Positions 9,855 to 43,771 of a DNA stretch of 43,771 nucleotides are shown here, piece by piece. The stretch comes from a virus: the IMG/VR virus record IMGVR_UViG_3300022751_000004, positions 1-43,771 of that record. One strand, written 5' to 3'. Position 1 is the stretch's first letter, and each line of letters starts with the position of its first letter. Under the pieces are notes generated by a model. It worked only from the letters and a program-made list of their open reading frames with translations. It ran no database searches and was not told the DNA's origin. Position numbers and translations under genes: made by a program.

Positions 9855-10007
9855 ATGAAAGATCAAAACGAACAAGACGAAACAACCAATACAGAAAAAG
9901 ACATGTGCGGATCTATCGACATGGGGCAACTGTTGCCGCCTGCTGGTGCGGGGCCTAACGGACACTATGAATGTGTAGAAGGATCGCCAGCATGGATAGA
10001 AGATTAA
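9855..10007 (+). CDS. Small acidic protein, function unknown
   Basis: A 50-residue acidic peptide beginning MKDQNEQDETTNTEKDMCGS, with a glycine/proline-rich middle (GQLLPPAGAGPNGHYECVEG). It starts 15 nt after the fibre gene and overlaps the next gene by 16 bases, so it is probably translated as part of the tail/lysis operon. No family recognised. Confidence 0.5.
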   Translation: MKDQNEQDETTNTEKDMCGSIDMGQLLPPAGAGPNGHYECVEGSPAWIED

Positions 10008-10375
10008 TAGTAAAGGCTGATTTTGTGAAGTGGTTACTCGTTAGCTTCGTTTTGCAAATCAGCTTTTATCTGTTTGTTCTTAGGTTTATTAAACTGACTG
10101 ATCGCATTACCAGATTGTGGCCCGGCTCTCTTTGTTTCCTTTTGGTTTTAGGATTAGTTTTAAGCCGTACGGATCACTCAGGACAATTAGAATGCGAATA
10201 CAGGAGAATGTCGTGGTGTGTGCTGTTTATTTACTGGGCGCTCTACGGAATGAATCTTTACCACCTATTACCATTTTCATACAAAGGAATTTTACTTTCA
10301 ATTACTGGCTTCACTTTTGCATATAGTTCCCTGATCGGTTATTATGCGAAAAAACATGGCTTCGATAACGAATAA
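9992..10375 (+). CDS. Small integral membrane protein
   Basis: A 127-residue protein with about four hydrophobic segments (LLVSFVLQISFYLFVLRFI, LWPGSLCFLLVLGLVL, VLFIYWALYGMNLYHLL, YKGILLSITGFTFAYSSLIGYY). The ATG at 9992 was chosen rather than 9971 because the longer start sits deeper in the previous gene. It lies at the head of a cassette of membrane proteins after the tail fibre, where siphophages usually keep lysis genes, so a holin or anti-holin role is possible but unproven. Confidence 0.55.
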   Translation: MDRRLIVKADFVKWLLVSFVLQISFYLFVLRFIKLTDRITRLWPGSLCFLLVLGLVLSRTDHSGQLECEYRRMSWCVLFIYWALYGMNLYHLLPFSYKGILLSITGFTFAYSSLIGYYAKKHGFDNE

Positions 10376-10376
10376 A

Positions 10377-10667
10377 ATGAACGACGAAAACGCAAGTACC
10401 GCATTGTACGAGCTTATAAAGTGGTGCTTTGCCTGGGTATCCGGGGCGGTAGCTACCATGTTTACGGCGACACAGATCATATCTGCATGGTCTAAAAATC
10501 AGGCCGCAAAAAGGATGGCTGAGATGGAAAGCGCTGCCAGCAATGTAATTGATGAAAAAATGGCCCCGGTAATCGACCGATTGTCTCACAACGTCGATAA
10601 ATTATCCGACAGCGTTGACAAACTAAAGACAGAGATGGGGGAACTAAAAAACAAAATACAGTCATGA
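10377..10667 (+). CDS. Membrane-anchored coiled-coil protein, possible lysis accessory
   Basis: A 96-residue protein with one N-terminal membrane segment (about residues 10-35, ELIKWCFAWVSGAVATMFTA) and a C-terminal coiled coil (VIDRLSHNVDKLSDSVDKL). That is the plan of hemolysin XhlA-like and inner-membrane spanin-like lysis proteins. In-frame ATGs also exist at 10344 and 10356, which would overlap the previous gene. The 10377 start is preferred because it lies one base after the upstream stop. The next gene overlaps it by ATGA. Confidence 0.55.
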   Translation: MNDENASTALYELIKWCFAWVSGAVATMFTATQIISAWSKNQAAKRMAEMESAASNVIDEKMAPVIDRLSHNVDKLSDSVDKLKTEMGELKNKIQS

Positions 10668-10894
10668 AAGCAATATCCGACAACATCAAACCGATTCTGG
10701 CGCTGCTGATCCTGGCGTTCGCCTTCATTTATTTCTTCACTGTGTTAATTATCGAAGGACACGCTAACGATCAGGTTATCATTGCCGTTGTGGCTATGGT
10801 TTCCGGGGCTACAGGCTATTATTTCGGCTCGAGCACAGGAACGGCCAAGAACGTGGAGACGATCAGCACACTGGCGCAGAAGAACGCAGGTTAG
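10664..10894 (+). CDS. Holin-like membrane protein
   Basis: A 76-residue protein with two hydrophobic helices: IKPILALLILAFAFIYFFTV and VIIAVVAMVSGATGYYFG. A small polar tail (SSTGTAKNVETISTLAQKN) follows. The GYYFGSS-type motif right after the second helix recurs in small phage holin-like proteins. It is the last rightward gene of the tail/lysis operon and its stop overlaps the stop of a convergent leftward gene. A holin makes the lethal inner-membrane hole that releases or triggers the lysin. No lysin was found next to it, which leaves some doubt. Confidence 0.6.
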   Translation: MKAISDNIKPILALLILAFAFIYFFTVLIIEGHANDQVIIAVVAMVSGATGYYFGSSTGTAKNVETISTLAQKNAG

Positions 10895-11055
10895 TATTGT
10901 TGCATCCACGCATCTTCATCGGGGTCGTCTTCGAAAAACGGCCCGATCCTACCAAAAAGCTCTTTAATGTGCTTTTTAATCTTGGTGAAGTAAAGTAAAG
11001 CGTAAAACCCGATTGTGTATACCGCTACGAGGAAAAAAAGGATGATAGTTTTCAT
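10891..11055 (-). CDS. Single-pass membrane peptide
   Basis: A 54-residue protein starting MKTIILFFLVAVYTIGFYAL. It has one N-terminal transmembrane helix, a basic stretch KIKKHIKELFGR and an acidic tail (EDDPDEDAWMQQY). It is convergent with the holin-like gene and overlaps its stop by three bases. It is the most distal gene of the leftward module. No family recognised. Confidence 0.55.
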   Translation of the reverse strand: MKTIILFFLVAVYTIGFYALLYFTKIKKHIKELFGRIGPFFEDDPDEDAWMQQY

Positions 11056-11075
11056 AACTGGTTAGGTTAAAGTAA

Positions 11076-11104
11076 CCGGCGCGGTGATCTCATTTCCGCG
11101 CCGG
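11076..11104 (-). terminator. GC-rich hairpin between leftward genes
   Basis: A perfect 9-bp stem (CCGGCGCGG 11076-11084, CCGCGCCGG 11096-11104) with an 11-nt loop. On the minus strand it is followed by TTACTTTAACC, so it may be a weak intrinsic terminator or an mRNA-stabilising hairpin after the lipoprotein gene. The rest of 11105-11169 holds nothing I recognise. Confidence 0.5.
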
Positions 11105-11169
11105 CAGTAAGCAAGCAACGTTTAGCCGTCACCAGGACTAAGGGACTTTTAAAGCGGTCAGGCACGAGC

Positions 11170-11514
11170 TTAATTGTGGAATGGTGAATAGTATTCGCAA
11201 ATGTTAATATGATAAACATCGCCTTGCCTGGTAGTTGATGCCCTCACACAATCCGTGCACCTACAATAGTACAAGCAAGGGTGGTGCCATTGGTAGTTGT
11301 CGTACGTGCTTTCATAGGCACATGAGTGACTTCCGCCTCCACCTGGTTCAGCTACCGGATTCATCACATGGTTGCCGGGAACTTTCCCTGGTGCAGTGAT
11401 AGCATCCACGCTACCTTTGATGTTCGCGTGCGCATCCTTTTTAATAGTTTCTTTTTTACAGCTTACACCCAGTGTAAGCGTGAGGGCCAGTAGCCAGATT
11501 GATAGGTTCTTCAT
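11170..11514 (-). CDS. Phage-encoded lipoprotein
   Basis: A 114-residue protein with a lipoprotein signal peptide, MKNLSIWLLALTLTLGVSCKK, where cysteine 19 in the LGVSC lipobox would be acylated. The KK after the cysteine differs from the acidic export signal of surface lipoproteins, so an inner leaflet or periplasm-facing location is likely. The mature part has a glycine-rich linker and a cysteine-rich C-terminal block (SCAYES, HHPCLYYCRCTDC). It is transcribed leftward, away from the structural genes. Candidate jobs are superinfection exclusion at the envelope or outer-membrane disruption in lysis. No family was recognised. Confidence 0.65.
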   Translation of the reverse strand: MKNLSIWLLALTLTLGVSCKKETIKKDAHANIKGSVDAITAPGKVPGNHVMNPVAEPGGGGSHSCAYESTYDNYQWHHPCLYYCRCTDCVRASTTRQGDVYHINICEYYSPFHN

Positions 11515-11530
11515 TCACCCAAAAATCCCG

Positions 11531-11552
11531 CCCCGAATTAACGGAAGCGGGG
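11531..11552 (-). terminator. Hairpin upstream of the lipoprotein gene
   Basis: CCCCG (11531-11535) pairs with CGGGG (11548-11552). On the minus strand the hairpin is followed by CGGGATTTTTGGG and then the lipoprotein start at 11514. It could end transcripts of the upstream 47-residue gene or act in the leader of the lipoprotein mRNA. Confidence 0.4.
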
Positions 11553-11585
11553 TGCTACTTGACACTCAGTTAAACGACAGAGTTT

Positions 11586-11729
11586 CTATTTTGCGAGATA
11601 CACACGCTCTATGCTTTCACCTTCGTATTCGCGTCGGCAATGGTTAGTTGCCAATTTACGAGCCTCAACTAAAGTGTTTGCCTTGATTTTGAAAGTTGAA
11701 TCGCTGGTTATGACGTTGTAAGTTTTCAT
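11586..11729 (-). CDS. Small protein, paralogue of the 45-residue protein at 28874
   Basis: A 47-residue protein, MKTYNVITSDSTFKIKAN followed by TLVEARKLATNHCRREYEG and ending ERVYLAK. It aligns end to end with the 45-residue product of 28874-29011. Shared features are a starting MK-aromatic strand, an FxIxA strand, an EA(R/V) helix, NxCR, and a final (R/N)V(Y/R)-K. A related start is also seen at 14419. This looks like a tiny alpha/beta fold of unknown function that the phage carries in several copies on both strands. Confidence 0.6.
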   Translation of the reverse strand: MKTYNVITSDSTFKIKANTLVEARKLATNHCRREYEGESIERVYLAK

Positions 11730-11747
11730 GATTATTGGTTTTTATAA

Positions 11748-12095
11748 TTAGCGGTTGATAGCCCAAAAAGGAACGATAGTGTCTCCGTCGATGTCTTTGA
11801 TTACTGATTTTGCGATCCATTTTTCAGTCATTCCGGTTCCCATTGGAATTGAAAGAAGGTAGGCCTTTTCCGATACCTTAACAATTCCGCAGTAAGCGAA
11901 AGAAATACCGCCTTTGTTTGCTACTGCCAGGTCGTTAGCAACCTTAGCAGCGCTTTCCACTACGCCTTTAGCGCCGATGCAGGCGTATATTGATGCAGAG
12001 CAGTTAGAAAGTGTAGTGAGTGCGTTTGCCACAGGCACGTTCATTTCGATGGCTGCTGCGGTTACTTCTGAGATTTGTTTTTTGGTGGCTTTCAT
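11748..12095 (-). CDS. Hypothetical protein, first gene after a strong leftward promoter
   Basis: A 115-residue soluble protein (MKATKKQISEVTAAAIEMNV..., TLSNCSASIYACIGAKGVVESAAKVANDLAVANKGG). It has an alanine-rich helical first half and a beta-rich second half. It is served by a TTTG-N19-TATCTTCA promoter about 22 nt upstream of its start. It may head the transcript that also covers the 47-residue protein and the lipoprotein. No family recognised. Confidence 0.6.
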   Translation of the reverse strand: MKATKKQISEVTAAAIEMNVPVANALTTLSNCSASIYACIGAKGVVESAAKVANDLAVANKGGISFAYCGIVKVSEKAYLLSIPMGTGMTEKWIAKSVIKDIDGDTIVPFWAINR

Positions 12096-12116
12096 TTTCG
12101 TTGCTGTTTAGTGATG

Positions 12117-12147
12117 TGAAGATACAACTATTTATTGCACCCGCAAA
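12117..12147 (-). promoter_or_regulatory. Leftward Bacteroidota-type promoter
   Basis: On the minus strand TTTG (12147-12144) is followed by exactly 19 nt and then TATCTTCA (12124-12117). The expected transcript start is near 12113, and the gene ending at 12095 starts about 18 nt later. The spacing equals that of the other promoters found in this genome. Confidence 0.68.
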
Positions 12148-12159
12148 TAAAAAGTGAAA

Positions 12160-12327
12160 TTATTTTAAATTATTTTTCACCCACTCGCAAAACATCGAAT
12201 TAACAGATCCTGGGAACTTCAATTTAAGATCTTCCCAATCATTTTTTGGCACCCGAAGATTAGGCTTCACCGTCTCTGGCGTGATCCTCCCTGGCTTCCT
12301 GCCCCTTGTTTCTTTTCGCTCTTCCAT
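12160..12327 (-). CDS. Small basic protein, possible DNA-binding
   Basis: A 55-residue basic protein: MEERKETRGRKPGRITPETV, then KPNLRVPKNDWEDLKLKFPG and SVNSMFCEWVKNNLK. The RGRKPGR start is an AT-hook-like motif. The strand-helix-helix pattern of the remainder is compatible with a ribbon-helix-helix regulator. Its stop lies just upstream of the leftward promoter at 12117-12147, so it could act on it. Function is not proven. Confidence 0.5.
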   Translation of the reverse strand: MEERKETRGRKPGRITPETVKPNLRVPKNDWEDLKLKFPGSVNSMFCEWVKNNLK

Positions 12328-12338
12328 TTGCCCGGAAA

Positions 12339-12363
12339 AGCCGCTCCATTTACGGTAGCGGCT
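12339..12363 (-). terminator. Leftward intrinsic terminator
   Basis: AGCCGCT (12339-12345) and AGCGGCT (12357-12363) form a perfect 7-bp stem with an 11-nt loop. On the minus strand the stem is followed by TTTTCC. It closes the operon whose last gene is 12393-12704. Confidence 0.62.
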
Positions 12364-12392
12364 CTCTTGCCTGCGGTAGATGCAAGGCGGGG

Positions 12393-12704
12393 TTATTTCA
12401 CCTCAATTATAGACTGTTCAACAATCGTGTACTTCCCGCGGTGCTTACGATCGGCGTAAAGATAGCCGGTAATTTTCGGCTGTCGCCCTTTAACCTTCCA
12501 GAACTCAGTGCGAACGATCACGTAGCCAAGTCGTAACCGGATCTCCGACTTCGGAAACTTGCCGATCTCCTGGAAGCTTACTTTGATTGTGTCTGTTCTG
12601 ACGCCTGCCAGTGTATCGGCAGGAACTGCTGGTGTAGTTACCTGCTGAGCTTTGATCGCCGCAGACAGGCTGAAAATGGCTAAAAATAGGAGGGTTCGTT
12701 TCAT
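12393..12704 (-). CDS. Secreted small protein
   Basis: A 103-residue protein with a Sec signal peptide, MKRTLLFLAIFSLSAAIKAQ, and a likely cut before QQVTTPAV. The Q at +1 is typical of Bacteroidota exported proteins. The mature part is basic and beta-rich (GKFPKSEIRLRLGYVIVRTEFWKVKGRQP). It overlaps the upstream gene by ATGA and is the last gene before a terminator. A periplasmic job during infection or lysis is possible. Family unknown. Confidence 0.58.
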   Translation of the reverse strand: MKRTLLFLAIFSLSAAIKAQQVTTPAVPADTLAGVRTDTIKVSFQEIGKFPKSEIRLRLGYVIVRTEFWKVKGRQPKITGYLYADRKHRGKYTIVEQSIIEVK

Positions 12705-12949
12705 TCTTCAGATAGTTTAAGGTTTAGTTCAATAATTTCGTCAGTGTCTTTGCTGATGCCTTCTCGGCACGTGGCAAGCTGTTTTTCAAGACGGATAATA
12801 TCAGTGCTCAGGCGCTGTATCTCCCAGTCGCGGTCTTTCAACTGCTGGCGCAAAGTTTCGTGATCATGCAGGAGAGATGCTGCGTGCGTCTCATAGCGTT
12901 TTGCCACATGCTTAATGTCGGCCAGGATCTTGTCGAATAGTTCTTTCAT
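12701..12949 (-). CDS. Coiled-coil protein, function unknown
   Basis: An 82-residue, almost fully helical protein (MKELFDKILADIKHVAKRYE, DRDWEIQRLSTDIIRLEKQL) with heptad spacing and no membrane segment. The ATG at 12949 is preferred to 12973 because it makes an ATGA overlap with the upstream stop, like its neighbours. Its position between a zinc protein and a secreted protein gives no clear hint of function. Confidence 0.55.
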   Translation of the reverse strand: MKELFDKILADIKHVAKRYETHAASLLHDHETLRQQLKDRDWEIQRLSTDIIRLEKQLATCREGISKDTDEIIELNLKLSEE

Positions 12950-13230
12950 GATTGTTCCTTTCTTTGGTTCCAAACTTTTAATGCGTCTTCTTTTTCAGAT
13001 TGGTATGTAGTTACGGGCCTAAATAGGCAACTCTTATCTTTATTCGAGCACCTAACAAACCATATAGTTCTCGCTGGCATAGAAAAAAGTCCTGTAAATG
13101 AGCTTCTACCTCCCTGGTAATTGGCTTTATAATGCTTATGAACAATCTCACCAGGGTTGCCGCAAAACGGACACGGCAAAAGATTATTATCGATCTTATC
13201 GACTACGGGAAGGGTTGGGTTGCTGGTCAT
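12946..13230 (-). CDS. Lar-like zinc-ribbon protein (restriction alleviation family)
   Basis: A 94-residue protein containing LLPCPFCGNPGEIVHKHY, a second metal pair position RCSNKDKSCLFRPV, and a C-terminal DALKVWNQR. PCPFCG...C...C...A...WN.R is the signature of the Lar_restr_allev family. The Rac prophage founder (Lar) modulates type I restriction, while most phage members are only known by sequence. The N-terminal start overlaps the upstream membrane peptide gene by four bases. If active it would help the phage DNA escape host restriction. The assignment rests on the motif pattern. Confidence 0.68.
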   Translation of the reverse strand: MTSNPTLPVVDKIDNNLLPCPFCGNPGEIVHKHYKANYQGGRSSFTGLFSMPARTIWFVRCSNKDKSCLFRPVTTYQSEKEDALKVWNQRKEQS

Positions 13231-13319
13231 GGTTTCATTAGTAAATAGTTAAGCATCAATGCAACTACCGTCGCCATTAGCGCAAAAACGGCTAGCTGTG
13301 TTTTTTCTTGTCGGCTCAT
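13227..13319 (-). CDS. 30-residue membrane peptide
   Basis: A 30-residue peptide: MSRQEKTQLAVFALMATVVA followed by LMLNYLLMKP. It is a single hydrophobic helix with a charged N-terminus. Its start overlaps the upstream lipoprotein stop and its stop overlaps the downstream start, which supports real translation in a coupled operon. It resembles short membrane lysis or toxin-like peptides only in form. Confidence 0.5.
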   Translation of the reverse strand: MSRQEKTQLAVFALMATVVALMLNYLLMKP

Positions 13320-13438
13320 CACATTACTTTCCTTATCCGTGGCGCCTGCATGCACTGCTGGCTGGTTGAGCATCCGCTCCATGCTACAGAAAATAGCAAA
13401 GCGAAGATAAATCCGATTACGAAGTCTTTCTTTTTCAT
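13319..13438 (-). CDS. Very small lipoprotein (Rz1/o-spanin-like size)
   Basis: A 39-residue product, MKKKDFVIGFIFALLFSVAW with a WSGC lipobox, leaving a mature peptide of about 19 residues (CSTSQQCMQAPRIRKVM) after acylation. Small outer-membrane lipoproteins of this size are typical of o-spanins (Rz1), which fuse inner and outer membranes at lysis. The presence of a coiled-coil membrane protein at 10377 would be compatible, but the two genes are not adjacent. The start at 13438 was chosen because the signal peptide begins there. The open frame upstream runs through a terminator hairpin and is not coding. Alternative: an exclusion lipoprotein. Confidence 0.55.
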   Translation of the reverse strand: MKKKDFVIGFIFALLFSVAWSGCSTSQQCMQAPRIRKVM

Positions 13439-13459
13439 TGTATGATTATTTGGTTTCTT

Positions 13460-13491
13460 CAATATAAACCGGCCCATATTCCAGGGCCGGT
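13460..13491 (-). terminator. Leftward intrinsic terminator of the 13.5-13.9 kb RNA
   Basis: A perfect 8-bp stem, ACCGGCCC (13491-13484 on the minus strand) and GGGCCGGT (13475-13468), loop 8 nt, followed on the minus strand by TTATATT. Read on the plus strand the hairpin is not followed by a T-run, so it belongs to leftward transcription. Confidence 0.7.
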
Positions 13492-13540
13492 ATTGCGTGT
13501 GCTCTGCTTTCGCCATCTATCACGCTACGCTTGGGTGTTG

Positions 13541-13663
13541 TGGACAAATCAGGCCTCGAACCTGAATACTACCTATCTACATTTCGTGATATTGCCCCGA
13601 CGTTCCCTTCGTTTGATGATCACAATGCGTATCGGCTGCTCTAACCAATTAAGCTATTCGCCC
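13541..13663 (-). other. tRNA-like domain with an abnormal anticodon region
   Basis: Minus strand, 123 nt. The acceptor stem GGGCGAA (13663-13657) pairs with TTTGTCC (13548-13542), including two G-U pairs. A normal D-arm follows, GCTTAATTGGTTAGAGC (13654-13638), with the GG of the D-loop. A normal T-arm has TCAGG-TTCGAGG-CCTGA (13565-13549). Between D-arm and T-arm there are 72 nt instead of about 23. They contain no standard 7-nt anticodon loop and instead form an irregular arm (GCATT/GTGAT 13628-13619 with ATCAC and AATGT 13590-13579). No CCA is encoded. It is therefore not a usable tRNA gene but a tRNA mimic or tRNA remnant inside a larger RNA. Confidence 0.6.
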
Positions 13664-13871
13664 GGTTTGCCGCTACTTTCCCGGCTGGTCACGCTTTGTC
13701 TGCCGAGGGTTCCGCACAGGTGATGGCTTCAAACGAATGACTTGCGATCATCTCCCGAGTTTGACTGATAACTTAACCTGCGCTTATCAGTCTCCAATCC
13801 GCTGGACTTCCCTCTATCTGGAATTTCCTTCACAGCATCGCACTGTGCCCCGCTTCATGCTTAGGACGCAA

Positions 13872-13903
13872 CAAAGTAAAGGCATTAGATCGAGATATGC
13901 AAA
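13872..13903 (-). promoter_or_regulatory. Leftward promoter for the candidate RNA
   Basis: Minus strand TTTG (13903-13900), 20 nt, TTACTTTG (13879-13872), close to the Bacteroidota consensus. Transcription would start near 13868, right at the 5' strand of the RNA's closing helix. It diverges from the HTH gene promoter at 13950. Confidence 0.5.
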
Positions 13904-13931
13904 TACTTTCGTAAAAATCTTTAAATTTCTT

Positions 13932-13957
13932 TTTGTCATTCCTTATATATACATTTG
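13932..13957 (+). promoter_or_regulatory. Promoter of the HTH regulator gene, leaderless type
   Basis: TTTG (13932-13935), 14 nt, TACATTTG (13950-13957), then four bases and the ATG at 13962. The same TTTG-N14-TACATTTG layout recurs before 28602 and 43317. Confidence 0.55.
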
Positions 13958-13961
13958 TATT

Positions 13962-14156
13962 ATGAGAAAATTAGAGGACATCTTAAAAACTGAAAAGATC
14001 ATAAACGTATCCCAGGTGGCTAAAAGGGTAGGGTTAAGCAAACAGGCGCTTAACAATAAGCTAAAGGGCAACGGCGGGGCTGCGCTGACTATCGAGCAAT
14101 CGGCCAAAATTAAGAGTGTTTTATTAGACGTTTTTACCGAGGTAAATAAAACTTAA
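13962..14156 (+). CDS. Small helix-turn-helix regulator
   Basis: A 64-residue protein with the HTH INVSQVAKRVGLSKQALNNKL (residues 14-34), where the recognition helix is SKQALNNKLKG, and a C-terminal helix SAKIKSVLLDVFTEV. It resembles minimal phage Cro/Xre-like regulators. It sits between the divergent promoters of the leftward RNA and the rightward early region, a place where a lytic switch or early repressor would be expected. The ATG lies four bases after a -7 box, so its mRNA may be leaderless. Operator sites could not be pinned down. Confidence 0.7.
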   Translation: MRKLEDILKTEKIINVSQVAKRVGLSKQALNNKLKGNGGAALTIEQSAKIKSVLLDVFTEVNKT

Positions 14157-14174
14157 AAATATTTTCACTTTTTA

Positions 14175-14205
14175 TTTGGTAGTTTAAAATACTTCTGTAT
14201 CTTTG
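14175..14205 (+). promoter_or_regulatory. Rightward early promoter, consensus Bacteroidota type
   Basis: TTTG (14175-14178), exactly 19 nt, TATCTTTG (14198-14205). The start codon at 14229 follows 24 nt later after AACGGAAAGAAATT. This is the best consensus promoter in the window and probably drives the early operon. Confidence 0.75.
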
Positions 14206-14228
14206 GTGTAAGCAAACGGAAAGAAATT

Positions 14229-14417
14229 ATGAAAACTCAGATCATCACCAAAAAATTCAACGGAACAACATTAACAGCTTACATCATGTCTGATGCAGAT
14301 GGCGCAATGTTAGATATGAATGGATGGGATCGTCAGTATTTTAAAACAGTCGCACAGGCTAAGGCCCGCGCTACTAAGATGTTCGCAACTGAAATCGACA
14401 ACCTTAAATACGCTTAA
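14229..14417 (+). CDS. Small early protein, unknown
   Basis: A 62-residue protein (MKTQIITKKFNGTTLTAYIM..., ending ATKMFATEIDNLKYA) of mixed strand-helix type. It is the first gene behind the consensus promoter at 14175-14205, so it should be among the first proteins made after infection. Such genes often act against host functions, but nothing in the sequence shows a target. Confidence 0.62.
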   Translation: MKTQIITKKFNGTTLTAYIMSDADGAMLDMNGWDRQYFKTVAQAKARATKMFATEIDNLKYA

Positions 14418-14418
14418 A

Positions 14419-14757
14419 ATGAAAGAGTTTAAAATACAGGATTCGCATAGGGGCGTAAAATTCACAAGCCTGTTGGTCGCTTCAACAAAAAAAGAAGCGG
14501 CTCGTATTTTAAATAAATCGCTGTACGAGATAAATACTTATGCACTATGCTATGAGCCTAAAAGTCCTGAGTGTATCAAAGAAAGAGGCATAGTTCATGC
14601 TTTTTTCGATAGCGGAGAGTTTTTTACTTTCAAGCATGAGCTTAGAAATAAGGTAATGACTAGGTCTGAAATGGTAGGCAAGATAAATGAATGGCGTAAA
14701 ATTTACCCAACATATAAAGATGCTGAAAACGATCTGGCCCCTAACCGGGGCTTTTAA
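14419..14757 (+). CDS. Early protein, unknown
   Basis: A 112-residue protein, MKEFKIQDSHRGVKFTSLLVA followed by STKKEAARILNKS. Its N-terminal strand-strand-helix (FKI...F...A...KEA..I) resembles the two tiny paralogues at 11586 and 28874. The start at 14419 lies one base after the previous stop. The open frame extends upstream to 14320, but that part overlaps the previous gene in another frame. A terminator hairpin lies within its last codons. Confidence 0.58.
   Translation: MKEFKIQDSHRGVKFTSLLVASTKKEAARILNKSLYEINTYALCYEPKSPECIKERGIVHAFFDSGEFFTFKHELRNKVMTRSEMVGKINEWRKIYPTYKDAENDLAPNRGF
14737..14755 (+). terminator. Intrinsic terminator inside the end of the 14419 gene
   Basis: GCCCC (14737-14741), a 5-nt loop and GGGGC (14747-14751) followed by TTTT. 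The hairpin encodes the last residues of the protein (LAPNRGF). It could limit read-through from the first early genes into the rest of the operon. Confidence 0.55.
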
Positions 14758-14776
14758 CCAACCTAAAAATAAAGAG

Positions 14777-15121
14777 ATGAAAACCAAACCAAAACTCAGA
14801 TTCGAAGTAAGGCGGTGTAGCCACGTTCAACGCCTTCAAAGCGGCAGGACAATGAGTACCCGGGTATGGGCCGTTTATGACACGCTGGATAATTCATTCG
14901 TAAAGGACACCGAGGATACTGAAAGCGAGATCGTGCAGGAATGGGCTTCTGAGATGGAGGCCGACTGCCAGCAACAGTACGGGGGAGTAACGCCTAGCGA
15001 TATTGAACAGTTACGTGATGCTCTTAGAAAACTTATCTCCTATGCCCCAAAAAGCAATATGACGGCAATGGATGTTCATTTTGTGAGAGGAATACAGGAA
15101 ACCATAAAGCACTTAATTTAA
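14777..15121 (+). CDS. Hypothetical phage protein
   Basis: A 114-residue protein starting MKTKPKLRFEVRRCSHVQRL. The middle is acidic (DTEDTESEIVQEWASEMEADCQQQYGG) and the C-terminus helical (DIEQLRDALRKLI). The first in-frame ATG not overlapping the previous gene is 14777, placed behind AAAGAG. It has no membrane segment. Family unknown. Confidence 0.55.
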   Translation: MKTKPKLRFEVRRCSHVQRLQSGRTMSTRVWAVYDTLDNSFVKDTEDTESEIVQEWASEMEADCQQQYGGVTPSDIEQLRDALRKLISYAPKSNMTAMDVHFVRGIQETIKHLI

Positions 15122-15142
15122 TCACCAAACCAACACAAAACC

Positions 15143-15289
15143 ATGAGCCTCCGCAAAGTTTACCGAGAATTATGGATTGAGATCCGCAAATGGCTCGTGT
15201 CCGTTCTGTTAAAATGGGCAATGGATATCATCCCGAAAGAGTGCAAGCAATCAATAATTTACATGGCAAAAGCTGTAATAGAACTATGA
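15143..15289 (+). CDS. Small protein with amphipathic/hydrophobic helix
   Basis: A 48-residue protein: MSLRKVYRELWIEIRKWLVS, VLLKWAMDIIPKECKQSIIY and a short tail. It contains a tryptophan-rich hydrophobic helix. It overlaps the next gene by ATGA, which argues for translation. Too short for the usual gene cut-off. Function unknown. Confidence 0.48.
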   Translation: MSLRKVYRELWIEIRKWLVSVLLKWAMDIIPKECKQSIIYMAKAVIEL

Positions 15290-15420
15290 AAACCCTCACC
15301 CTCACCAACAACGAATGGCACCGCGTAAACACCGGATGCGAAACCATGGCGATCCTTGCGGCATACGCGGGTTGCTGGTACTGGAATAGAAAGAATGTAA
15401 CTGTAAAAACTATAAAATGA
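15286..15420 (+). CDS. Small protein, unknown
   Basis: A 44-residue protein, MKTLTLTNNEWHRVNTGCET ending WNRKNVTVKTIK, with a short hydrophobic middle (MAILAAYAGCWYW). It is coupled by ATGA overlaps to genes on both sides, which is the main evidence that it is real. Confidence 0.48.
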   Translation: MKTLTLTNNEWHRVNTGCETMAILAAYAGCWYWNRKNVTVKTIK

Positions 15421-15785
15421 AACAATTCACATTACCAAAAGAGTTTGCTGAGAAATGGGTTGCCGAGCTTAGGAGTGGCAGGTATATGCAAACAACCCAT
15501 AAACTATGTGATGGCGTAGGATTCTGCTGTTTAGGTTTAGCCGGAGTTGTAGCCGGTCATTCAAAAGGGGAACTTGAAGGCCATTCGGTATTCGGGCCAA
15601 AATATACCGGGACTATCCCAGTGGCTGGTCTTCCCGCTCTTGTTGAATCACTTGTTCCGGTTGAACTTTATGGAAACGCAACTGATAACAAACTGGTTGA
15701 AAAGCTCACGGATCTAAATGATCGTGAATGGAAAACATTCCCAGAAATTGCCAACTGGATCATTGATAACGTAGAATTTGTATGA
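15417..15785 (+). CDS. Conserved phage hypothetical protein (W-x-x-LRSG...FCCLG family)
   Basis: A 122-residue protein with the pattern KWVAELRSGRYMQTTHKLCD, GFCCLGLAG, LNDREWKTFPEIANWI. This combination (lysine-tryptophan-LRSG, a GxCCLG core and a C-terminal LND...F.EIA.WI) recurs in many phages as a protein of unknown function. The paired cysteines in FCCLG may bind metal or be structural. It is coupled to its neighbours by ATGA overlaps. Confidence 0.65.
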   Translation: MKQFTLPKEFAEKWVAELRSGRYMQTTHKLCDGVGFCCLGLAGVVAGHSKGELEGHSVFGPKYTGTIPVAGLPALVESLVPVELYGNATDNKLVEKLTDLNDREWKTFPEIANWIIDNVEFV

Positions 15786-15943
15786 ACCATTACCAAAACG
15801 ACTCCTACGCCGCTGAGCGGGCCTGGGACAACATCCTTGAGGTAAGGTACGACCGGGAGGAAGACAGCCGTGAAGAGGAAGAAGAAGAGCCCGATCATGA
15901 GCCCGATCGGGAAGAAATAGAACAAGTAACCATTAACCCATAA
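15782..15943 (+). CDS. Small acidic protein
   Basis: A 53-residue protein: MNHYQNDSYAAERAWDNILE followed by an acidic low-complexity run (REEDSREEEEEEPDHEPD). It overlaps the upstream gene by ATGA. Such acidic peptides sometimes mimic DNA in anti-restriction proteins, but length and composition alone do not prove this. Confidence 0.45.
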   Translation: MNHYQNDSYAAERAWDNILEVRYDREEDSREEEEEEPDHEPDREEIEQVTINP

Positions 15944-15947
15944 CAGA

Positions 15948-16100
15948 ATGAAAACTCTTTTAGATGTCAAGAAAAATTATGCGCAGGAATGCGGATATAA
16001 TTCCTGGGTAGAAATTGCCCGTACAAGCGCCTATAGGCATCATCTTAAAAATGCACTGAATCGGTTCGCCGATCTTAACCAGGAGGGAGAGAAGCCATGA
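15948..16100 (+). CDS. Small protein, unknown
   Basis: A 50-residue helical protein: MKTLLDVKKNYAQECGYNSW, VEIARTSAYRHHLKNALNRF and a short tail. It lies four bases after the acidic peptide gene and overlaps the next by ATGA. The ribosome-binding region of the following gene (CCAGGAGGGAGAG) lies in its 3' end and is unusually strong for this genome. Confidence 0.48.
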   Translation: MKTLLDVKKNYAQECGYNSWVEIARTSAYRHHLKNALNRFADLNQEGEKP

Positions 16101-16423
16101 GCGAGAAGAAATTACCAGTAGGAACATGGCGCGTAGTAAATGATTACGACGAATACGAAGAATATTCACCCGATAAGCCACAGATATACATTTGGGACGG
16201 CGATGAACAGGCGTATGCTCCGATCTGTGATATGGGCGAAATTGGAGATATGAACTATGCCGAAAAGTTAGCCAACGCCAATATCATCGCCGCCGCTCTC
16301 GATCTTTACGAAGCCCTGGAAGCCCTGTATAATAGCATAGATTCATGTATTGACTTAACGCCTGAATTAATGAAGCAGTGCCGGGAAGCCTTACGCATAG
16401 CAAGGGAGGGGAGGGGATCATGA
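16097..16423 (+). CDS. Conserved phage hypothetical (ANA-x-IAAA-x-LYEAL family)
   Basis: A 108-residue acidic protein. The segment NYAEKLANANIIAAALDLYEALEALYN (about 52-79) matches a widespread phage pattern ANAxLIAAAPDLLEAL. The first half is beta-rich (WRVVNDYDEYEEYSPDKPQIYIWDGD). It has a strong Shine-Dalgarno AGGAGGGAG about 12-18 bases upstream, uncommon here. No biochemical role is known for the pattern. Confidence 0.58.
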   Translation: MSEKKLPVGTWRVVNDYDEYEEYSPDKPQIYIWDGDEQAYAPICDMGEIGDMNYAEKLANANIIAAALDLYEALEALYNSIDSCIDLTPELMKQCREALRIAREGRGS

Positions 16424-16647
16424 GCGCTAAAAGAAACTGGTTTATATCTTACAGCCGTTTATATTACGATGATAATGGTGTAGAAAAAACAGATTTTAGA
16501 AATACCGTTATAGCTAGCGAAGGATTCCCCGACAGTTACGAAGACATAAAAAGATGGCAGACCATGATAGAAGACAATATATATAAAGAAAACTCCCTTA
16601 TAACCTCTGTTGTAATACTGAACTACCGATTAATAGACGAACCATGA
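16420..16647 (+). CDS. Small protein, unknown
   Basis: A 75-residue protein, MSAKRNWFISYSRLYYDDNG ending SLITSVVILNYRLIDEP. It has beta strands at both ends and a helix between (SYEDIKRWQTMIEDNIY). It resembles small phage proteins that read WFISY...G.....N.......I...I, but no name can be given. The ATGA overlap with the previous gene fixes the start, not the longer frame from 16378. Confidence 0.52.
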   Translation: MSAKRNWFISYSRLYYDDNGVEKTDFRNTVIASEGFPDSYEDIKRWQTMIEDNIYKENSLITSVVILNYRLIDEP

Positions 16648-16871
16648 ACCGCCCCCACATTCACTACTCCCCTACCCCTGTCCGTATCCCGGTAGAGAAA
16701 AAGCGCCGTTACGACTGGCGGGTATACCTGGCAATATTTGGAGCCGTTCTTTTTGGGGCGGTTATGAGGGGGTGTCAGGAGCCGGGGGTGAGGTTGACAA
16801 GTATAGAGAAAATCTATATCTCATCGCCATCATATCAACATTTAGTATTGGCATCGACCAAAGTAAAATAG
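16644..16871 (+). CDS. Small single-pass membrane protein
   Basis: A 75-residue protein with a basic, proline-rich N-terminus (MNRPHIHYSPTPVRIPVEKK). One transmembrane helix follows (RVYLAIFGAVLFGAVMRGC, residues 26-44), then a short tail. It is coupled by ATGA to the upstream gene and is the last gene before a 123-base non-coding leader. Confidence 0.5.
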   Translation: MNRPHIHYSPTPVRIPVEKKRRYDWRVYLAIFGAVLFGAVMRGCQEPGVRLTSIEKIYISSPSYQHLVLASTKVK

Positions 16872-16879
16872 TACCTTCA
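16848..16879 (+). promoter_or_regulatory. Possible promoter of the structured leader
   Basis: TTG (16848-16850), 21 nt, TACCTTCA (16872-16879). It departs from the consensus in both boxes and spacing. Transcription would start near 16883, just upstream of the crossed-stem element. Confidence 0.35.
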
Positions 16880-16891
16880 TAATTCAATCGC

Positions 16892-16972
16892 GGGTCTGAC
16901 ATTATACGCGATGAAAGATTTTAAAGCCTGTTTGTGAACCGGAAGTCAGACCCCGAGGATCGGATAGGCTTT
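16892..16972 (+). promoter_or_regulatory. Crossed-stem (pseudoknot-like) leader element
   Basis: Two perfect helices cross each other. GGGTCTGAC (16892-16900) pairs with GTCAGACCC (16945-16953, 9 bp). AAAGCCT (16923-16929) pairs with AGGCTTT (16966-16972, 7 bp), the latter followed by ATTTATTT. In order a-b-a'-b', they can form an H-type pseudoknot or two exclusive states, one of them terminator-like. The gene at 16995 starts 22 bases later. The 123-base gap holds no other feature. Confidence 0.55.
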
Positions 16973-16994
16973 ATTTATTTAACAACATTTTGAA

Positions 16995-17342
16995 ATGGCA
17001 ACATTAATAAAATTCAAAAAAACAACTGTAGAATCAGTTTTTGAAAAAGAAATCGATCTCCCGGCTTACTTCACATATGGGGAAGCTACCCCTTCAGATT
17101 TTCAGTCGGGCAAAATTAACTATTGTAACATAGTAGCCATCATTGACCCTGATAAAAGGTCAGTAAATATCAAGCTTTCCCGAAACAATGCATTGATGGA
17201 AGAAGCTTTTAATAATCATGACTATGGCAGGTCGTGTTGGGAAAACGGGTACATCCTTGACAGAAACGAGTTTAAACAAGTGCCGAAATGCGAATGGGAA
17301 ATAGCTAAGGGATTACTTATGGGGGAGATATCCGGGCTATGA
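16995..17342 (+). CDS. Hypothetical protein behind the structured leader
   Basis: A 115-residue protein with a lysine-rich start (MATLIKFKKTTVESVFEKEI), aromatic middle segments and the C-terminal helix CEWEIAKGLLMGEISGL. It is the first gene after the crossed-stem element, so that element probably controls it and the recombination genes that follow. It overlaps the next gene by ATGA. Family unknown. Confidence 0.55.
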   Translation: MATLIKFKKTTVESVFEKEIDLPAYFTYGEATPSDFQSGKINYCNIVAIIDPDKRSVNIKLSRNNALMEEAFNNHDYGRSCWENGYILDRNEFKQVPKCEWEIAKGLLMGEISGL

Positions 17343-17500
17343 GCTACCAACCCAAACACCACACCCGCGAGTACCACGTAAAGCAGATACTTCGCATCCA
17401 AAACGTAGGGCATGATGCCTATCTCGCCGGGCACGTACCACAGATAGCTTCCATTGAGGGGAGCTACTTCTCTAAACGATTTAAACAAACTTCCAAATGA
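17339..17500 (+). CDS. Small basic protein, unknown
   Basis: A 53-residue protein: MSYQPKHHTREYHVKQILRI, QNVGHDAYLAGHVPQIASIE and a basic end (GSYFSKRFKQTSK). It overlaps both neighbours by ATGA. Its place at the head of the recombination genes suggests co-expression with them. No function visible. Confidence 0.48.
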   Translation: MSYQPKHHTREYHVKQILRIQNVGHDAYLAGHVPQIASIEGSYFSKRFKQTSK

Positions 17501-18270
17501 GCGCTGAAGAACAAGAAATCAAAGAACCTGAAGAAAGTGAATCCGGGTTAACCATTACAGATGCTTCGCTTATATCGCCAGATCCTAATAAGGAGGTTCG
17601 AGACTTTCGCAAGAAAATGGAGACTTTCGCCAAATTGGTTAACACGGCCCCGGTACCCGAAAAGATCAAAACACATCAAGGGTACGACTACCTCCCAATT
17701 TCAACCGTAGAAAAAGAACTTGACCGGGTTTATTTCGGCCTGGTTCAATACGAATGCATTTCCTACCAGCAGATTTTCAATGAGGTTGCCTGTCATGCCC
17801 GAATCAAAGTATTCCACCCGGTAATTAACCAGTGGATGAACTATGACGGTTTGGGATCTGCTGTCCTTCAACAGGATAAAGATACGAAAGTTGCCGATTT
17901 TATGCACCATAAAAAAGCGAACGCGGGGCAATTAACCTACCCTAAAGCATACGCGGAAGCTATCAAGAACGCGGCTAAAAAGATAGGTAAACGGTTCGGG
18001 GCCGACATTAACCGGAAGTTCGAAGATGAGTACGTCCCGTTTTATAAGGATGAGCCCAAAAAAGACGTGCCGGAAGAAAAGGAGCCGGAGCCTATTGAAC
18101 CGGAATCGCCAAAGGTTGAGATATCTGAAGAGCTAATCCACAGCGTCACGATAACGGATGACATATCGCATCTTACAACGATCTGGAACGAAAACCAGGA
18201 ACTTCAAAGCAACCCAAATTTCATCAAATTGTTAAACGCGCGTAAAGTCGCCATAAGAGCACAACAATGA
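17497..18270 (+). CDS. Single-strand DNA annealing protein (ERF/Rad52-like)
   Basis: A 257-residue protein. The core (about residues 45-170) reads KTHQGYDYLPISTVEKELDRVYF, HARIKVFHPVINQWMNYDGLGSAVLQQD and a helix KAYAEAIKNAAKKIGKRFGADINR. This W...DG.G...(40-50)...A...A.K.A....G..FG.D+NR pattern is typical of phage annealing recombinases of the Rad52/ERF group. The C-terminus is an acidic proline-rich linker (EPKKDVPEEKEPEPIEPE) and a small end domain, as in many annealing proteins. It would coat single strands and anneal them, working with the nuclease encoded next to it (overlap ATGA). Confidence 0.72.
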   Translation: MSAEEQEIKEPEESESGLTITDASLISPDPNKEVRDFRKKMETFAKLVNTAPVPEKIKTHQGYDYLPISTVEKELDRVYFGLVQYECISYQQIFNEVACHARIKVFHPVINQWMNYDGLGSAVLQQDKDTKVADFMHHKKANAGQLTYPKAYAEAIKNAAKKIGKRFGADINRKFEDEYVPFYKDEPKKDVPEEKEPEPIEPESPKVEISEELIHSVTITDDISHLTTIWNENQELQSNPNFIKLLNARKVAIRAQQ

Positions 18271-43316: not shown

Positions 43317-43771
43317 ATGATCGAGGTAAAGCACTATTTGCGAAAAGCATACTTGCAAAAATTTGCCTCATTGACCTATCAGGGTAAGGCCATCCCCATG
43401 GATGACGAGAACCTCACAAAGCCGCCCGCCGTTTTCAACTATGGCAATATCCCAGTTGAAGCCTACGTCCTGATACAAAACCAAACCCTGCAGGACGCAT
43501 CCCCAAAGTGCGCGGTAAACCAAAATACTCAATTACAGTTAGACGTAACCACTGTTTTCCCAACAGGAACAACCAATAACGGCGGATACATGCTGGCCGA
43601 TCAGATCAGCGACGTTATACTGCAAGAATTATTCCCCGGAGCAATAAATCAAATCGATCTTCCGTTTCCTGAGGCTCAATTATGGAATGGTTACCTTGTA
43701 TCATCTCAGCACCTTTTTAGTGAGTTTGAAGCATCTCGCGTTTACCGTAACATTCTCATTTTAAATCACAG
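43317..43771 (+). CDS. Tail completion/terminator-type protein, 5' part (continues at 1-155)
   Basis: N-terminal part of the 160-residue protein completed at 1-155: MIEVKHYLRKAYLQKFASLT, then KPPAVFNYGNIPVEAYVLIQNQ and TTNNGGYMLADQISDVILQELFPGA. The alpha/beta layout with a central I.DVIL..L helix fits small tail terminator or DUF3168-like tail completion proteins, which stop tail growth and bind the head connector. The last 127 bases are the terminal repeat. A start three bases after a -7 box predicts a leaderless mRNA. Confidence 0.68.
   Translation, partial: MIEVKHYLRKAYLQKFASLTYQGKAIPMDDENLTKPPAVFNYGNIPVEAYVLIQNQTLQDASPKCAVNQNTQLQLDVTTVFPTGTTNNGGYMLADQISDVILQELFPGAINQIDLPFPEAQLWNGYLVSSQHLFSEFEASRVYRNILILNH
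43645..43771. repeat. Terminal direct repeat, right copy
   Basis: Exact copy of bases 1-127. It lies within the coding sequence of the tail-completion protein that starts at 43317 and, after circularisation, ends at 155. Confidence 0.93.

Follow-up and report, generated by a model that had tools for sequence, protein, structure and literature searches.

In this study, we revisited a gene-free stretch in the genome of a virus and found that it holds a tRNA-like domain of 123 nt, which has the acceptor, D and T arms, the variable loop and the tertiary-core nucleotides in common with ordinary tRNAs and with the tRNA-Met(CAU) of Bacteroidota. Unlike in an ordinary tRNA, the anticodon loop is enlarged to 56 nt, there is no usable anticodon and ARAGORN is silent. 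Judged from its sequence, this RNA probably cannot read codons as it stands and would be a tRNA mimic rather than a decoder.

The phage and its tRNA-like domain

The window, by which we mean the whole stretch of DNA analysed, is a virus record of 43771 bases that carries an exact terminal direct repeat of 127 bases (1-127 and 43645-43771), and because of this repeat it is probably a complete genome. The virus is a Bacteroidota phage; its terminase is 61% identical to those of Flavobacterium phage 11b and Cellulophaga phage phi10:1, and its gene set is partly lambda-like, with NinB, NinG, an exonuclease VIII-like protein and a CII-like helix-turn-helix (HTH) regulator. Neither an integrase nor an RNA ligase was found among the proteins scanned. 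As had been predicted, the tRNA-bearing stretch lies next to an HTH regulator at the junction of divergent blocks, one running leftward and the other opening rightward with the CII-like gene at 13962 (Table 1).

Table 1. Features in and around the tRNA-like domain of the window, and positions of the prophage RNA used for comparison
Feature	Position	Strand	Details or basis
CII-like HTH regulator, 64 aa, divergent	13962..14156	+	PF06892 E 2e-4; phrog_101
Promoter-like pair, Bacteroidota type	13872..13903	-	-33 TTTG 13903-13900, 20-nt spacer, -7 TTACTTTG 13879-13872
5' part (leader) of putative RNA, about 203 nt, non-coding	13664..13866	-	53% G+C
Perfect 9-bp hairpin GACTGATAA/TTATCAGTC, 12-nt loop	13763..13792	-	strands 13792-13784/13771-13763
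Long-range 9-bp helix TTCGTTTGA / TCAAACGAA	13608..13737	-	strands 13737-13729 with 13616-13608
tRNA-like domain, 123 nt, discriminator A73, no encoded CCA	13541..13663	-	RF00005 36.4 bits
Acceptor 5' strand GGGCGAA	13657..13663	-	pairs with TTTGTCC 13548-13542, 7/7, two G-U
D arm GCTTAATTGGTTAGAGC with G18 G19	13638..13654	-	Rfam alignment and direct reading
Anticodon arm, 4/5 pairs	13571..13636	-	stem GCCGA 13636-13632 / TAGGT 13575-13571
Variable loop AGTAT, 5 nt	13566..13570	-	direct reading against tRNA numbering
T arm TCAGG-TTCGAGG-CCTGA	13549..13565	-	Rfam alignment
Intrinsic terminator ACCGGCCC-TGGAATAT-GGGCCGGT, then TTATATT	13468..13491	-	8-nt loop; stem listing
Lipoprotein-like peptide, 39 aa, first leftward gene past terminator	13319..13438	-	ORF list and codon-usage score
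Lar-like restriction-alleviation protein, leftward block	12946..13230	-	PF14354 E 3.5e-10; phrog_599
Enterobacterial prophage tRNA-Met-like RNA	L241:1800-1925, L248:1077-1203, L251:3220-3345, L268:4506-4632, L288:5067-5192, L316:43-168, L318:1308-1433, L498:2503-2631

The Infernal search against Rfam that had been put forward as a check bore out the domain, whose score against RF00005 exceeds the gathering score of 29. Its E-value was 6.6e-6 when the search was local; over the whole window it was 3.8e-4, and no other match reached E<=1. Neither ARAGORN nor Rfam's fast filters reported it, probably because of the long insertion. Folded alone, the domain adopts the cloverleaf as its lowest-energy structure, with the expanded loop forming an extended arm. 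Its T arm is the only T-arm-like hairpin with a GG-TTCRA core on the minus strand, and by direct reading all partners of the tertiary core are present (U8-A14, A15-U48, G18-U55, G19-C56, U54-A58, A9-A23 and G10-G45), G45 and U48 of the AGTAT loop being available for their contacts with G10 and A15. A reading of the site as a phage attachment site was rejected, as both halves of the tRNA are present and the scanned proteins include no integrase.

The original prediction described the acceptor stem, D arm and T arm correctly; its statement that 72 nt replace the anticodon and variable region went too far, as the variable loop and four of the five anticodon-stem pairs remain, the exception being a G30.A40 mismatch between positions 27-31 and 39-43. 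Since the variable loop has the standard 5 nt and the stem is paired to this extent, the insertion of 49 nt must lie in the anticodon loop (13631-13576), which is 56 nt long against the usual 7. The 7-nt loop with U33 and an anticodon that belongs to an RF00005 tRNA is thus replaced by one of 56 nt. Removal of any contiguous piece yields no register with a normal anticodon loop: U33 is obtained in a 7-nt loop only together with the anticodon GUA, G37 and the G.A stem mismatch, and when the insert is shuffled an equally good solution arises in 18% of cases. In tRNAs, A36 is normally followed by A37, and the tRNA-Tyr of bacteria belongs to class II, with a long variable arm. A covariance model of the 123 nt matches a 74-nt tRNA in more than half of 396 genomes of the Flavobacteriales order, and the four best genome matches that were checked are tRNA-Met(CAU), which suggests that the body resembles the elongator tRNA-Met(CAU) of Bacteroidota. 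It is because the U33 registers give only this combination, and because the body is nearest, among the genomes searched, to tRNA-Met(CAU) genes, that we consider the RNA to be probably non-decoding. The insert itself resembles nothing known; for a group I intron, such as occurs in tRNA genes, there is no Rfam intron match and the insertion has only 49 nt.

The surrounding transcript

The stretch 13470-13866 was correctly predicted to be gene-free. Using a codon-usage model trained on the phage's own long genes, we obtained negative scores in all six frames, and controls were positive (+0.24 for the HTH gene and +0.03 to +0.23 for leftward genes). A protein-coding reading was therefore rejected. 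The G+C content of the stretch is 52%, against a genome mean of 45%.

The promoter-like pair and the strong terminator of the original prediction are both in place, and neither type of site is present in excess of chance. The -7 box has one mismatch to TAnnTTTG, and matches of equal quality number 48 in the window with about 51 expected by chance, for which reason the pair taken alone is weak evidence of a promoter; perfect Bacteroidota promoters (TTTG-19-TAnnTTTG) occur at other sites in the window, e.g. 14176 and 37066. If the pair is used, transcription would be expected to start at about 13867-13865. The terminator has the highest G+C among the stems listed for 10000-18000, where nine terminator-like sites compare with 8.2 expected. 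The first leftward gene follows it after 30 nt, an interval in which no promoter match was found.

The original prediction that the whole stretch forms a single structured RNA of about 410 nt, into which a tRNA has been absorbed, found no support. The folding energy of 13460-13885 gives z = -0.97, and 18 of 100 shuffled sequences fold as well; among the parts (z of -0.27 for the 5' part, -1.20 for the tRNA domain and -2.04 for the tail with the terminator) only the terminator tail stands out. The perfect 9-bp hairpin is present as described, although its strength is reached in about 7% of shuffles (p about 0.07); its loop GCGCAGGT could pair over 8 bp with ACCTGTGC at 13721-13714 and so form a pseudoknot. 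The long-range 9-bp helix likewise exists and does not exceed chance, the strongest helices, including both that join leader and expanded loop, being matched in 20-23% of shuffles. Moreover, a rival 11-bp helix (13752-13742 with 13625-13615) overlaps the 9-bp one, and therefore the two best long-range helices cannot both form. The predicted pairing of the ends is doubtful, since the 5' strand TTGCGT (13871-13866) comes after the -7 box but ahead of the expected start, and most of it would be absent from the RNA. A large structured RNA beyond the tRNA domain is thus unproven, and nothing in the folding supports it. For 13664..13866 there is no Rfam match, no coding signal and no folding better than that of shuffles; these first 200 nt are most simply regarded as a leader.

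Relatives and comparable RNAs

Homologues in which covariation could be assessed, as the original prediction had envisaged, were not found in any of the collections of phages, plasmids, IMG/VR records and Bacteroidota genomes that were searched. DNA-similarity searches of phage records and plasmids, of 46 IMG/VR records whose terminase is related, and of 13 genomes with a related helicase plus 398 of one order returned only tRNA-arm fragments or chance matches. The pattern D arm, gap, T arm, applied to IMG/VR and 395 Bacteroidota genomes, retrieved other tRNA-like sequences and, among the matches listed, none that was homologous. With the 123-nt covariance model, only ordinary 74-nt tRNAs were seen among the matches listed for the 396 genomes, and unrelated expanded tRNAs in phage loci; the 46 terminase-related records yielded no homologue with it either. 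The neighbouring HTH, tail and Lar-like proteins retrieved no relatives when used as baits (the HTH and Lar-like proteins in IMG/VR); the helicase retrieved 80 loci that have only the helicase-methyltransferase pair in common, so there is no synteny at the RNA. The pattern GAGGGAAGTCCAGC gave chance matches inside genes in IMG/VR, and a faint likeness of it to RNase P was rejected, there being no Rfam match.

Phage tRNA-like genes often have an enlarged anticodon region, as the matches to a permissive pattern of D arm, 58-88 nt and T loop show: among the matches listed, 21 of 110 distinct ones have a perfect 5-bp anticodon stem, a variable loop of 4-5 nt and a loop of 39-69 nt, where 3 would be expected. 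A comparator is provided by a tRNA-Met-like RNA of 126-127 nt in one family of enterobacterial prophages, in which one hairpin follows the D arm, another precedes the T arm and an extended arm is tipped by TTCATAA. In its alignment, 95% of the pair cells are standard and 13 pairs change on both sides; the 35 compensatory cells compare with 11.7 in shuffles, and the covariation exceeds that of every shuffle and every slid control. Most copies are missed by ARAGORN-type searches; one, in the P1-like plasmid NZ_JBRBPZ010000006.1, is annotated as a tRNA-Met of 129 nt, and a Tad2 anti-defence gene is found two genes away. The copy in L251 scores 25.9 bits with our 123-nt model, by way of the tRNA body, and has a repressor gene on one side and a yfdP/yfdQ-like early block on the other (compare the annotated phages phiNP and LLS), a position like that of the window RNA. 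In both RNAs the anticodon domain of a tRNA body is enlarged, and to a similar size. However, the prophage RNA has a CAU loop at the tip of its arm and two extra hairpins, its GAG-hairpin-extended arm with the TTCATAA tip is absent from the window insert, and the sequences are dissimilar. We therefore do not regard the two as homologous; the prophage RNA does show that a tRNA body can be conserved together with an enlarged anticodon domain.

Several further observations were made on such loci. Downstream of the prophage repressor, L251 (2390-3586), L241, L248 and L318 have a gene-free region in which CACAAC/GTTGTG and AAGAGCAC/GTGCTCTT hairpins close a series of repeated modules; some of the modules hold additional T-arm-like hairpins. 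Phage tRNA anticodon loops of the form CT-[~45-55 nt]-TAA between perfect 5-bp stems occur in L219, L243, L250, L253, L265, L276 and L290, and the inserts of L250, L253, L219, L271 and L289 hold a T-arm-like hairpin (e.g. CCAG-TTCGACT-CTGG), as though the insert were a tRNA minihelix in its own right. In L217, L228, L267, L279, L285, L314 and L328, an insert of 35-45 nt and of recurring, similar sequence follows the third base of the anticodon stem, as ACG-[TAAA ... hairpin ... ACAGCAA ...]-GCCTTGTAAGCCGT. Two Bacteroidota genomes (L475 and L476) have tRNA-like sequences with GTTCCTA-containing inserts between AGTTCCTAT/AGGAACTT inverted repeats, and a terminase-related Bacteroidota phage (L338, G009:32823-32936) has a tRNA-Leu-like one with an oversized variable region.

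Other known RNAs resemble the window RNA in part. GOLLD and ROOL are non-coding RNAs of phages or prophages that are often found near tRNAs, and GOLLD sometimes holds a tRNA in a linker (PMC12286853). They are larger than the window RNA, and their structures are supported by covariation; their covariance models, drawn from Rfam (PMC12286853), gave no match at E<=10 locally and none at E<=1 across the window. tmRNA similarly has a tRNA-like body with a longer element in place of the anticodon arm, whereas the window domain has a D stem, an insertion of 49 nt rather than about 300 and no tag reading frame; ARAGORN detected no tmRNA, and the window has no match to the Rfam tmRNA models. Theta ribozymes, which occur beside phage tRNAs (PMC10879173), are likewise non-coding elements associated with a phage tRNA, and the Rfam searches reported no HDV-like motif at the 3' end of the window RNA.

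Proposed function and alternative explanations

We tentatively propose, as a reading that is quite possible, that the domain is a tRNA-shaped, non-decoding RNA which is made leftward and early, is trimmed, and serves as a tRNA mimic or as a processing point. According to this proposal, leftward transcription would take place early in infection, host RNase P and RNase Z would trim the transcript like a tRNA precursor, and a stable tRNA-shaped RNA would be kept without decoding. Its most likely job would be tRNA mimicry, that is, to occupy host enzymes that bind or cut tRNA; alternatively, it may mark a processing point for the early leftward transcript. The Rfam match, the native cloverleaf, the intact tertiary partners, the absence of a normal-loop register and the non-coding nature of the stretch would be in agreement with this, as would, by analogy, the adjoining Lar-like anti-restriction gene and the precedent of the conserved prophage RNA, one relative of which neighbours a Tad2 anti-defence gene; the match of the 123-nt model to tRNA-Met genes also speaks for it. 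Against it, the promoter is weak, no homologue was found, so that selection is visible only as an intact body, and the decoy or processing role is one that we infer. The same picture would arise if a tRNA gene had recently acquired an insertion, and it is somewhat unlikely, in our view, that the domain is such an interrupted or decayed tRNA gene, left functionless in a gene-free junction. No homologue keeps the domain, the insert is without likeness to anything and the anticodon stem has its G30.A40 mismatch, all of which fits a pseudogene; yet the other stems and the tertiary contacts are all intact, where decay would be expected to affect the acceptor stem and the T stem as well, and about 400 nt have been retained in a small phage genome that has few bases to spare. 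That some unknown mechanism excises a small intron from the anticodon loop and leaves a working tRNA is very doubtful. The excess of long loops between perfect 5-bp stems among the phage matches listed speaks for this reading, whereas the stem in the window is only 4/5 paired, its flanks depart from the CT...TAA pattern of that class, all U33 registers place GUA-G37 on a class I body while bacterial tRNA-Tyr is class II, and no RNA ligase is among the proteins scanned.

Two further explanations concern the transcript as a whole. One large structured RNA, similar in kind to GOLLD and ROOL, with the tRNA as an integral part and pseudoknots between leader and expanded loop, would account for 395 non-coding nucleotides between a promoter-like pair and a terminator, for their raised G+C content and for the complementary stretches in leader and expanded loop. 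We think it unlikely, as the folding and the overlapping, chance-level helices described above do not favour it and no homologue and no Rfam match to GOLLD, ROOL or another large RNA was found. Its stronger form, a new class of early phage RNA of about 395 nt in which an anticodon-less tRNA body is an integral, pseudoknotted domain and which would be made where the leftward early block begins, to act on host tRNA enzymes or early transcription, is improbable. Finally, the RNA could act in cis as a leader for the leftward early block: it would control the terminator by put-like antitermination or by attenuation, and the tRNA body would serve as sensor or fold. The terminator does separate the RNA from the first leftward gene, with no promoter match between it and that gene; however, no antiterminator helix stands out and there is no relative, and we give this explanation little credence.

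Taken alone, the window RNA is for now of modest importance. The covarying prophage family means that at least one oversized tRNA-like RNA is conserved, and phage RNAs that keep a tRNA body and have lost or buried the anticodon are under-counted because tRNA finders drop such genes. If they should prove to act as decoys against defences that cut tRNA, or as modules for the processing of early transcripts, a permissive search for a D arm, 60-90 nt and a T arm would provide the list of candidates.
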